Below, one piece after another: positions 6,309 through 26,588 of a stretch of DNA of 42,307 bases. The position numbers were made by a program, and so were the translations under genes. The DNA lies in NCBI GenBank assembly GCA_039804165.1, contig JBDRZZ010000016.1, forward strand, positions 1-42,307, read 5' to 3'. Numbering within the stretch: the first letter of the stretch is position 1; each line of letters opens with the position of its first letter. Under the pieces are notes generated by a model. The model was not told the origin of the DNA. It saw only the letters and a program-made list of their open reading frames with translations, and did not search any database. The DNA comes from a candidate division WOR-3 bacterium. Its GTDB lineage: Bacteria > Hydrothermota > UBA3072.

Positions 6309-7496
6309 TTATTCGACTTTAATTTTAAGAAATTTTCTTTTTCCTAATTTTATAACAGTATCCTTTTCAAAAGACAAATTCAAAGTAGAATCTACCATTT
6401 TTTTACTGTCTATCTTAAGAGCCCCACCTTCTATAAGTCTTCTTGCTTCTCCTCGGGATTTTACTAAACCTGCTTTACTAAGAAGTTCTACAATCCAAAT
6501 TTTCTCTCCTTTTTTAACTTTTATTTCTTCAATATTCTCAGGAACTTCTCTTTTTGAGAAAACTTTTATGAATTCTTCTCTTGCCCTTTTTGCTTCTTCT
6601 TTATTGTGATAATAAGAGACAATTTTTTCGGCGAGTTCTAACTTAAGATCTCGTGGGTTTTCCCCTTTTTCCAATCTTTCTTTCAAAGCTTCTAAATTTT
6701 CCTTACTGGAAGAAAGACATAATTCAAAATACCTTAAAATTAACTCATCTGGAATAGACATTATTTTTCCAAACTGTTCTTTAGGAGATTCAGCAATGCC
6801 TACATAATTTCCATAGGATTTACTCATTTTTCTCTTACCGTCTAAGCCTTCAAGGATTGGCATTAAGATAATTACTTGAGGTTCTTGTCCAAAACTCTTT
6901 TGCATTTCTCTTCCAAGGAGGTGATTCCAATGTTGATCAGTTCCGCCAAGCTCTACATCTGCTTTAACAGCCACAGAATCATAGGCCTGGAATATTGGAT
7001 AGAGAAACTCATGCAGAGCTATAGGTTGTTCGTTTTTATACCTTGTTGCAAAATCATCTCTTTCCAACATCCTTGCCACAGTTATTCGAGAAGCGAGTTT
7101 TACAATCTCTGAGGGTGTCAATTTTGTAAGCCATTCAGAGTTATATCGGACTTCAGTTTTTTCTTTATCTAAGATTTTGAAAATTTGCTCCTCATAACTT
7201 TCCATATTTCTCTTAACCTCTTCTTCACTTAAAGGAGGACGAGTTTTTGATCTTCCCGAAGGATCTCCAATCCTTGCGGTGAAATCTCCCACAATGAGAA
7301 CTGCTTTATGCCCAAGATCTTGAAAGTCTTTTAGCTTATGAAGCACAACAGCAAAACCAAGATGAATATCAGGAGCAGTGGGGTCTATTCCAAGTTTTAC
7401 TCTTAAGGGACGATTTTTTTTAAGTTTTTCCCTTAATTCTTCTTCTGTTATTACAGTATCAACTCTTGCTAATATTTTCTCTATTTCAGGGTTTAT
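6309..7496 (-). CDS. tyrS: Tyrosyl-tRNA synthetase, apparent ATA start
   Basis: Class I tyrosine-tRNA ligase of 395 residues. Visible parts are [14 protein letters not shown] (the HIGH-type motif, here HLGF), [18 protein letters not shown], the tyrosine-site region [24 protein letters not shown] (KMSKS at about 223-227) and a C-terminal S4 RNA-binding domain ([16 protein letters not shown]). The first GTG in frame (7346) falls after the HIGH motif and cannot be the start. The frame continues upstream to (I)[10 protein letters not shown], matching the usual MNPE-type beginning, and the codon there is ATA at 7496-7494, 5 nt after a perfect GGAGG. It heads the minus-strand run toward ftsY and DUF2207. 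Confidence 0.93.
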
Positions 7497-7548
7497 TTTT
7501 ACCTCCAGGAATATAAGTTTATAAAAAGTATTATATTCCCTTTATTTG

Positions 7549-24130: not shown

Positions 24131-25867
24131 TTAGAATAAAAGCTTAGCCCATAAGTTAAAACACCTTCTTAGCCCAGGATAATCCCTGTCATAGAGACTA
24201 TTACCAAATGCTGTTATGTATTTAGCATCTAAAAGATTGTCTACATTAAAACCAAAGGAAATGTTATTTATCTCTTTACTAACTCCCAAATCTACTATAA
24301 AATCACTTTCTATTTTTTTCCATCCTTCATAAAATAATTTTTTCCGTTCTCCCATCCATTTTGTTGAAATTTCAGTGTTTATAGGACCCTTATGAAAAAC
24401 AACACCATAAAGAGAATGTTTTGGATGATATTGAAGTTCTCTTTTCAGATCATCTTCTTCATCATAACCATCAAGATACGAATATCCTAAAGAATAGGAA
24501 ATGTGGTTTAATTCTCCTTTAGCACTCACATCAATTCCAAAAACTCTGCTCTTAGAGATATTCTGAGGAATCCAGAACTCATTATATCCAATTCTGTCTT
24601 TTATGTTTTCTATATGCCCAGAGATAGAAAATCCTTTTATCTTAATTCCTCCATTTAATCCCATAGAAGACTCTGGCTTAAGTTCACTATTAGAAAAATT
24701 TGGATAATAAAGATCGTTTAGAGTGGGAGCCTGAAATGCAGAGCCAATAGAAATAAAAACCTCTAAAGGATTAATGAAAACTCTACTTCCCACTGTAAAA
24801 GAAGGATGAAACCCAAAACTTCTATACCAGTCTTCTCTTAAGGAAAGAAAATTATTGAAAAGTCCATTTTCTTTAAACAAAGAGAGAGAAATTCCTGCTT
24901 TTTCCTCTTCTGGATAAAAAGAGGTTGTCTCTGGTAAATATTGAGTCCCCCAAACCTTATCTTTCTCTAAATTAATTTCTAAGGAAGCTATTTTGTATAA
25001 AAATTTTGTATTAAATTGTCCCACTATTGTATTGTATTTAGCGGATGCCTCTACAGGTTCTCCAGTTATATAATCTGAATATTTCCAGTTATATTTGAAT
25101 AATTCGCAACTAAGCACAGGTTGGATAACTATTCCAAGTTCTCCTTTTGGAAAAACCTTATTATAAGATAGATCTAGGAAATCTACTTTTTGATGATCAA
25201 ACAATGAAGTTGCAGTAGCATCGCCAAAAGTTGGAATTACTCCTTCTTGAGGAAGGGGACCGGGGACCCCTAACTTTCTATGAGATAAAACCAAATTCAA
25301 ACCTTCCCAATTAGAACTAAAAGAGTATCTTTCATAGTCCGTATTACTCCTATCTCCCTTTCCTTTTTCAAGCAATAAGTTCCCATTTACACCATATTTA
25401 TAAAACTCAATCCCTCCCATTAATGAAGAATTTGAATTAGCTTGGACTTTTAATTGATTTACTTCTTCTCCAGTAATGATATTTACAATGCCTCCAATTG
25501 CATTAGACCCTTGAAATACGGAAGAAGAACCTTTTATTATTTCAATTTTTTTTACAGCTCTTAAAGGTATTACAGAAAGATCAAAACCTCCATTTTTTGG
25601 ATCATTTATCCTATGCCCATTTAACATTATTAAAGTGTGCTTTGAAGTACAGCCATGAAGCTTCGTTTCTGTTAAAGAATTTGGCTCCCCATAACTATAA
25701 ATATAAATTCCTGCTTTTTTCTCAAGAATTTCTCCAAGATCTTCAATAGTAATTAAATCTTCCACTTCAATCACTTCAACTTGATAGGGTAAAGCTTCAA
25801 GCCTCTTTCCTATTACAGTTATCCCTTCTAATTCAAAATACATTGTCCCTATTAAAATTAACAACAT
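24131..25867 (-). CDS. TonB-dependent outer-membrane receptor, BtuB-like
   Basis: The 578-residue protein starts with a very short hydrophobic leader, then ITVIGKRLEALPYQVEVIEVE as the TonB box/plug start, and a plug domain with LGEILEKKAGIYIYSYG, TLIMLNGHRINDP, VKKIEIIKGSSSVFQGSNAIGGIVNIIT. The rest is a 22-strand-like barrel that ends in LWAKLLF, with a C-terminal Phe as needed for BAM insertion. Substrate: most likely cobalamin or another corrinoid, since the gene lies in a transcript that opens with a cobalamin riboswitch. Its ATG has GGAGG 5 nt upstream and overlaps the ECF gene by 10 nt. The leader is shorter than normal for a signal peptide. Confidence 0.88.
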   Translation of the reverse strand: MLLILIGTMYFELEGITVIGKRLEALPYQVEVIEVEDLITIEDLGEILEKKAGIYIYSYGEPNSLTETKLHGCTSKHTLIMLNGHRINDPKNGGFDLSVIPLRAVKKIEIIKGSSSVFQGSNAIGGIVNIITGEEVNQLKVQANSNSSLMGGIEFYKYGVNGNLLLEKGKGDRSNTDYERYSFSSNWEGLNLVLSHRKLGVPGPLPQEGVIPTFGDATATSLFDHQKVDFLDLSYNKVFPKGELGIVIQPVLSCELFKYNWKYSDYITGEPVEASAKYNTIVGQFNTKFLYKIASLEINLEKDKVWGTQYLPETTSFYPEEEKAGISLSLFKENGLFNNFLSLREDWYRSFGFHPSFTVGSRVFINPLEVFISIGSAFQAPTLNDLYYPNFSNSELKPESSMGLNGGIKIKGFSISGHIENIKDRIGYNEFWIPQNISKSRVFGIDVSAKGELNHISYSLGYSYLDGYDEEDDLKRELQYHPKHSLYGVVFHKGPINTEISTKWMGERKKLFYEGWKKIESDFIVDLGVSKEINNISFGFNVDNLLDAKYITAFGNSLYDRDYPGLRRCFNLWAKLLF

Positions 25868-26379
25868 AAAGCCTCCTTTCTTTTAATTTTCTTTGCTATT
25901 TGAGATAGAATCACTCCGTAAATAAAAACTTGAGTGAAAATGTGCCATAGATTAAAAGGAAGACCTGCAAGAAGATAGGCAGAAAGAGTTTTCTTTTTCG
26001 GGAAGAATAAAATGGCTCCTCCAAATGTTGTCAATAAGTCATATAGAATTGTAAGAATAAATCCTAGAAGTCCAAAAATATAACTTTTATTCCATCCTTT
26101 TTCATTACAAAAACCTCCTACAAAACCTATTAAGATTCCACCAACAATTTGAGATAAAAGAAGAGGGATAGGAGACAACCCAAGAGGGTTTAGTAAACCA
26201 AAGATCAAGAAGGTAAGACTTCCAACTAAAATGCCTACCTTTGGTCCAAATAAAACTCCAGATAGGAAAACTGTAGAAGTAGTTAACTCAAGATTTGGTA
26301 TATAGGAAAGTAAAAAACCAAATCCTAACGCTAAAGACGTAAATATTGTTATATAAGATATCTCTTTAATCCTATTAAT
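25858..26379 (-). CDS. ECF transporter S component, probable corrinoid, apparent ATT start
   Basis: The 173-residue substrate-binding membrane subunit has about five to six helices. GFGFLLSYIPNLELTTSTVF, LSGVLFGPKVGILVGSLTF, GLLNPLG, LLSQIVGGILIGFVGG and AGLPFNLWHIFTQVF fit S components of energy-coupling factor transporters. The first ordinary start in frame, TTG at 26208, lies in the middle of a conserved helix. The frame goes on upstream through NRIKEISYITIF to ATT at 26379-26377, 6 nt after a perfect GGAGG. The riboswitch ahead suggests a corrinoid or a cobalt-linked substrate. The energising T and A subunits are not in the window. Confidence 0.85.
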   Translation of the reverse strand: MNRIKEISYITIFTSLALGFGFLLSYIPNLELTTSTVFLSGVLFGPKVGILVGSLTFLIFGLLNPLGLSPIPLLLSQIVGGILIGFVGGFCNEKGWNKSYIFGLLGFILTILYDLLTTFGGAILFFPKKKTLSAYLLAGLPFNLWHIFTQVFIYGVILSQIAKKIKRKEALCC

Positions 26380-26406
26380 ATTTTTCCTCCCCTCGGAGTA
26401 CTTTTC

Positions 26407-26554
26407 GGAATAGCAGGTCTCCTGACTTATGGCCTCCTACCTACTTACTGCACCTTCCCAGGTGTAGAAACACCCAGTGGTATATTGCAGCTTTCGTTGC
26501 CAAATACAGTAGCGGGGCTGTAGCGGATTCTCACCGCTTTCCCTTAACTATTCC
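26407..26554 (-). promoter_or_regulatory. Cobalamin riboswitch
   Basis: Read on the minus strand, the region has the B12-box elements in order: AAGGGAAAGCGGTGAGAATC, GCTACAGCCCCGCTACTGT, CCACTGGGTG, GGGAAGGTGCAG and AAGTCAGGAGACC. The closing stem P1 is GGAATAG (26554-26548) paired with CTATTCC (26413-26407). It should repress the ECF and receptor genes when adenosylcobalamin or a relative is plentiful. Just after it, CTCC and GGAG can pair over a GAGG loop and so hide the ECF Shine-Dalgarno, which suggests control at translation. Confidence 0.95.
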
Positions 26555-26560
26555 AAGGAA

Positions 26561-26588
26561 AAAATAAATTATTTATCCAAAAAGTCAA
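26561..26588 (-). promoter_or_regulatory. Promoter of the cobalamin riboswitch operon
   Basis: TTGACT (26588-26583), 16-nt spacer, TATTTT (26566-26561) on the minus strand. The predicted start, 7 nt further, falls at the first base of riboswitch stem P1. Confidence 0.7.

Follow-up and report, generated by a model that had tools for sequence, protein, structure and literature searches.

A predicted AUU start codon behind a cobalamin riboswitch in a CbrT-like ECF transporter gene of a candidate division WOR-3 bacterium

The window analysed here is a stretch of 42,307 nucleotides from a candidate division WOR-3 bacterium (contig JBDRZZ010000016.1), on the minus strand of which a cobalamin riboswitch aptamer is followed by a gene for an ECF transporter S component and by a gene for a BtuB-like receptor. 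The window's own genome is referred to as G000 and its congener as G001, and the family comprises G000–G005. The features discussed below, including tyrS from the same window, are as follows.

26395..26567, minus strand, cobalamin riboswitch aptamer RF00174 (104.5 bits; gathering threshold 31.5)
26387..26398, minus strand, hairpin CTCC-GAGG-GGAG including the Shine–Dalgarno sequence (read from the sequence; −6.2 kcal/mol)
26386..26390, minus strand, Shine–Dalgarno sequence GGAGG, six bases 5' of ATT (read from the sequence)
26377..26379, minus strand, proposed start codon ATT, aligned with ATA in G001 and with ATG in G002–G005
26206..26208, minus strand, TTG, residue 58, the first standard codon at which the frame could open, not accepted as the start
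25858..26379, minus strand, ECF transporter S component, CbrT-like, 173 amino acids plus stop (PF12822, 2.4e-08; PF07155, 2.4e-06; family profile to 6fnp_A, 1.8e-08)
24131..25867, minus strand, TonB-dependent receptor, BtuB-like (PF00593, PF07715), which has an ATG of its own behind AGGAGG and overlaps the stop of the ECF gene
6309..7496, minus strand, tyrS, proposed ATA start at 7496-7494 behind GGAGGT, with an aligned ATA in five of the six family genomes

The protein encoded at 25858..26379 belongs to the ECF S-component fold family (34.6 bits against a threshold of 30.7 for PF12822 and 28.1 against 26.7 for PF07155), and its matches in NCBIfam lie far below the cut-offs. As a single sequence it matched nothing in the PDB up to an E value of 1; the profile of 14 homologues gave 6fnp_A, over positions 3–161, as its sole match there with an E value not above 0.1. 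The accessible part of its report identifies 6FNP as ECF-CbrT, a transporter of vitamin B12 (PMC5997447). The present system resembles ECF-CbrT in its family profile and in the presence, elsewhere in the genome, of a CbiQ/EcfT-type T component (CbiQ family), whereas the window protein alone is unmatched and its substrate is predicted. Homologue matches were found in 16 of the 60 relatives searched; a single-sequence scan of the genome contigs yielded no relative and an alignment-based scan yielded 13 loci. The neighbouring TonB-dependent receptor is nearest to BtuB models (TIGR01779, 7.3e-43, yet below the cut-off), and a BtuB-like gene lies 3' of the ECF gene in G001–G004 with 49–61% identity and in more distant relatives with 26–29% identity, the contig of G005 ending at this point. 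The corrinoid link of the ECF gene proposed in the first-pass annotation is thus supported by the upstream RF00174 aptamer, the profile match to 6fnp_A and the adjacent BtuB-like gene.

The aptamer match covers the whole RF00174 model (1–189) with a score above the curated threshold and is the only match in the genome at the search threshold. RF00174 was also found in eight of the 15 relatives' loci scanned, including those of all five other family members. Read along the minus strand, the 3' end of the aptamer is CTCC (26398-26395), followed by a loop GAGG (26394-26391), the Shine–Dalgarno sequence GGAGG (26390-26386), a spacer AAAAAT and ATT (26379-26377). The pairing between CTCC and GGAG that had been noticed at the outset is borne out as a predicted hairpin of four base pairs, which is modest by itself: the 34-base fold has a z of −1.95, and seven of 200 shuffles were equally good. 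The same pairing is part of the minimum-energy structure in six of nine single-strand folds, with L007, L009 and L016 folding otherwise. In eight of the nine riboswitches compared, the aptamer ends in, or is followed by, the box sequence CTCCGAGGGGAG (CTCCGTGGGGAG in G003), L016 being different.

The ECF frame is open from ATT to a stop ending at 25858, and it contains no ATG, GTG or TTG in the 19 codons between ATT and the preceding in-frame stop TAG. At residue 1 the alignment shows ATT in G000, ATA in G001 and ATG in G002, G003, G004 and G005, so that in both genomes of the genus a different AUN codon behind a Shine–Dalgarno sequence occupies the position of the homologous ATG. TTG 26208 is not a credible start because residues 1–57 hold seven of the 23 columns that are invariant among 14 homologues (G21, P28, N29, E31, F38, G41 and G45), all of which would be dropped, and residue 58 is not where the homologues begin. 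The reading of the frame from ATT stands as it was originally made, and TTG lies inside conserved protein, which the first-pass annotation took for membrane helices. The bare pattern GGAGGN{4,9}ATW occurs 23 times in the window against 20.3 expected, which is not commoner than chance, and the case for ATT is accordingly carried by the conserved frame and the homologues and not by the motif. On this comparative evidence, ATT 26379-26377 is very probably the true start of the ECF gene. In G001 a decayed partial copy of the ECF gene is also present (L018, 1430-1600, plus strand), which matches over 29 residues with 66% identity, also carries ATA and consists of the ECF 5' end and a remnant that resembles, as judged by eye, the end of the riboswitch; RF00174 gave no match there at E up to 1.

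The distance between the box and the ECF start codon divides the family. In G000, G001 and G003 the spacing from the box GGGGAG(G) to the start codon is 5–6 bases, no terminator-like hairpin between box and start codon was seen by eye, and the riboswitch box doubles as the predicted ribosome-binding site. In G002, G004 and G005 the ECF ATG lies about 50–60 bases 3' of the box, and a GC-rich hairpin with a T run, terminator-like by eye, is situated between them. Control within the family may consequently have moved between transcription and translation (the loci concerned being L004 in G002, L006 in G005 and L007 in G004). Because the box is also kept far from the ECF start, it is first of all a riboswitch element, and its conservation is not evidence for a deliberately weak start.

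Other genes of the genome and family appear to begin with ATA or ATT, among them tyrS, which had been named as a second such start in the window. The codon aligned with the tyrS start is ATA in G000, G001, G002, G003 and G005, and in G004 an ATG is present one codon earlier. In several relatives the codon overlaps the stop of the upstream gene, as ATAA in G001 and G003, ATAG in G005 and ATGA in G004 (L077, L078, L079 and L081), and a change of the upstream stop from TGA to TAA or TAG would alone convert the tyrS ATG to ATA; the window tyrS (7494-7506, minus strand) is without such an overlap. What looked like a conserved tyrS leader is, in G001, G003, G004 and G005, the coding end of the upstream gene and was rejected, and the leader in the window gave no family match above threshold and two matches at chance level. 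The gene infC, the classic autoregulated gene with a non-canonical start, begins directly 3' of a strong Shine–Dalgarno sequence (L001, 1249, plus strand; L097-L105) with ATT in G000 and G001 and with ATA in G002–G005 and in the class relatives G006–G009; in E. coli, infC likewise opens as GGAGG...ATT. For a gene directly behind tRNA-Lys(ttt) that encodes a cNMP-binding protein (L039, 8090, plus strand; L117, L118, L120), G000 and G001 have ATA, G002 and G005 have an ATA placed one or two codons earlier (with a weak Shine–Dalgarno sequence in G002) and G004 has ATG; of the five family genomes with a close relative, four thus apparently use ATA. The gene feoA (L031, 2656, minus strand) apparently has ATA behind GGAGG in G000 only, the four family relatives that could be read having ATG. 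Candidates recognised in one genome each are an Rnf-Nqr subunit in G000 (L175, 1091, plus strand; apparent ATA behind GGAGG) and, in G001, a HEAT-repeat protein (L185:4178; ATA, with TTG five codons on). A comparison confined to the samples added, from G003, three genes with a strong Shine–Dalgarno sequence and apparently no standard start, namely a Clp ATPase with ATA (L198, 3938, minus strand), an IMPase with ATT (L200, 7880, minus strand) and a TatD nuclease with ATT or ATC (L208, 6028, plus strand).

The frequency of such starts was surveyed with a simple codon-score gene caller in 1,240,037 bases of G000 (944 gene frames), 642,823 of G001 (453) and 400,000 of G003 (301), using a filter on the coding score that also required no standard start upstream, the next one at least 12 codons downstream and a Shine–Dalgarno sequence of at least five letters 4–8 bases away. 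The filter kept 33 codon positions, ten of which were ATA, ATT or ATC, compared with 1,903 among the 15,728 positions examined. The binomial probability of this excess was 0.004 when counted by position and 0.001 when the positions were grouped into genes by hand (10 of 17). Omitting the two window genes gave 0.010, and omitting the G003 tyrS, the G001 infC and one weak case as well gave 0.11 (5 of 12). The survey statistics alone are not strong, and homology is the better support. In an E. coli K-12 control of 300 kb chosen for infC and pcnB (250 frames), only infC was flagged; as one of the two positive controls, pcnB, was missed, the survey counts are low estimates. In G000, five of the 944 sampled frames (tyrS, cNMP-binding, feoA, Rnf and ECF) were recovered, in addition to infC outside the sample, a frequency of the same order of magnitude as in Listeria, for which the accessible part of a report gives six of 2265 conserved genes with a fixed non-canonical start (PMC13068326). 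Among the 410 starts aligned between samples, 382 had a standard start within eight codons, and the other 28 were read as misplaced or offset starts with no convincing replacement by ATA, ATT or ATC, which argues against a loose habit. The suggestion that ATA and ATT starts are a habit of this genome is thus partly supported: the habit is real, embraces a handful of genes including the classic infC, some of them common to the family, but is confined to a very small share of the sampled frames.

In the decoding machinery, the pattern GGGCTCATAACCC, which we take to be that of the anticodon arm of initiator tRNA, is present in ten of the 11 genomes searched (G000–G009), ARAGORN places a tRNA-Met(cat) at the copy in the window's own genome, and the initiator anticodon arm predicted there is canonical. 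Arginines of the IF3 C-domain matter for fidelity, and inspection of IF3, as had been recommended, revealed an intact protein with one family-specific change: the position of E. coli R129 is Trp in all six family genomes (L096-L101) and in none of 14 others, which have R, K, M, T or F. The Trp could not be tied to the habit as its cause, the column being variable outside the family and the class relatives with an infC ATA having no Trp. The accessible portions of the literature yielded nothing fitting on these residues, and the substitution is at present only a lead.

Taken together, these features suggest that a B12 switch acting on translation is combined in series with an AUU start that is weak and sensitive to IF3. 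The vitamin B12 S component would be translated from AUU. Binding of B12 to the aptamer would favour the CUCC-GGAG hairpin, in which the Shine–Dalgarno sequence would be held and 30S binding presumably hindered; without B12 the Shine–Dalgarno sequence would be free and initiation could take place at AUU. As AUU is a near-cognate codon for the initiator anticodon CAU, with a mismatch at the third position, initiation would remain weak when the site is open and would be exposed to proofreading by IF3, provided that the ordinary initiator is used. Both the leak and the ceiling of expression would then be low, and the weakness of AUU would itself be selected and sensitive to IF3. The riboswitch, the box sequence, the open frame and the start-codon comparison are the observed part of this explanation. 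Riboswitch control at a weak initiation site, as first proposed, is plausible, and the ATA at the same spot in the nearest relative suggests a deliberately weak start. We regard the whole statement, up to and including weak initiation, as probable with moderate confidence.

The main rival is that ATT is a start without regulatory meaning, having arisen by tolerated drift behind a strong Shine–Dalgarno sequence as in other drifted genes of the lineage. The two congeners carry different codons (ATT and ATA), the feoA ATA is found in G000 alone and the tyrS ATA could have been produced by a stop-codon change in the overlapping upstream gene, all of which speak for drift; nevertheless, ATG is one substitution away and is retained in the four other family genomes, and the tyrS ATA is kept across most of the family. 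Two further points bear on deliberate weakness: the BtuB-like gene has ATG behind AGGAGG, so that weakness does not extend to the entire operon, and, because the genus is represented by two genomes, selection for weakness is not separable from drift. We consider drift without regulatory meaning a serious possibility, although an unlikely one.

Translation might instead be initiated at TTG 26208 or at some non-standard codon within the aptamer, or be coupled to a small frame further 5'; the frame is open for 19 codons 5' of ATT. This is highly improbable: conserved residues would be lost with TTG, the codons preceding ATT fall within the aptamer or immediately 3' of it and are no protein extension shared with the homologues, whose ATG aligns with ATT, and the leader (26567-26380), read by eye, has no ATG and only GTG frames that stop well before ATT. 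Also highly improbable is a sequence error or a decaying gene whose real or ancestral codon is ATG. The window does come from a single MAG contig, and G001 carries the decayed partial copy described above, but the main ECF copies are intact in both congeners, with the frame open and the invariant residues retained, and G001 is independently without ATG; two congeneric genomes that lack ATG and have different codons in its place count against sequencing error.

The proposed B12 switch at a weak AUU start can be compared with two kinds of known system. The cobalamin riboswitch of E. coli btuB acts on translation. The present arrangement is like it in having an aptamer followed by a hairpin able to hold the Shine–Dalgarno sequence of an uptake gene, and differs in having AUU or AUA and not AUG, in placing the ECF S component first and the BtuB-like gene second, and in that its ligand response is putative. 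In S. aureus, the accessible part of one report describes non-canonical starts in infC, ccpN and citZ (AUA) and in cvfC1 (AUU); relative to AUG, such starts gave about 10% in poor medium, and ccpN reached up to 30% in rich medium (PMC13009471). Compared with these genes, as far as the accessible text describes them, and with the AUU-started infC of E. coli, the ECF gene is alike in having an AUN codon behind a strong Shine–Dalgarno sequence that is kept in relatives, whereas here a nutrient transporter under a riboswitch is concerned and the use of the codon is predicted from the sequence.

Non-canonical AUN starts and cobalamin riboswitches are each known, and their pairing is less so; in the accessible parts of the open-licence literature, no fitting paper on a riboswitch paired with a non-canonical start was found. 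In practice, a gene caller restricted to ATG, GTG and TTG would cut 57 residues from the ECF transporter and 50 from tyrS. As a speculative extension, to which we assign a low probability, the family might keep a small regulon of ATA- and ATT-started genes (among them infC, tyrS, the cNMP-binding gene and the riboswitch-controlled B12 transporter) that IF3 tunes jointly, through either its level or its altered form, in which case one initiation site would answer both to a metabolite switch and to a global switch of start stringency. If the proposed control of the ECF gene is true, it would represent a natural riboswitch in series with a near-cognate start, in which it could be asked whether the strength of the start codon sets the range of the riboswitch and whether the level of IF3 co-tunes metabolite-controlled genes.
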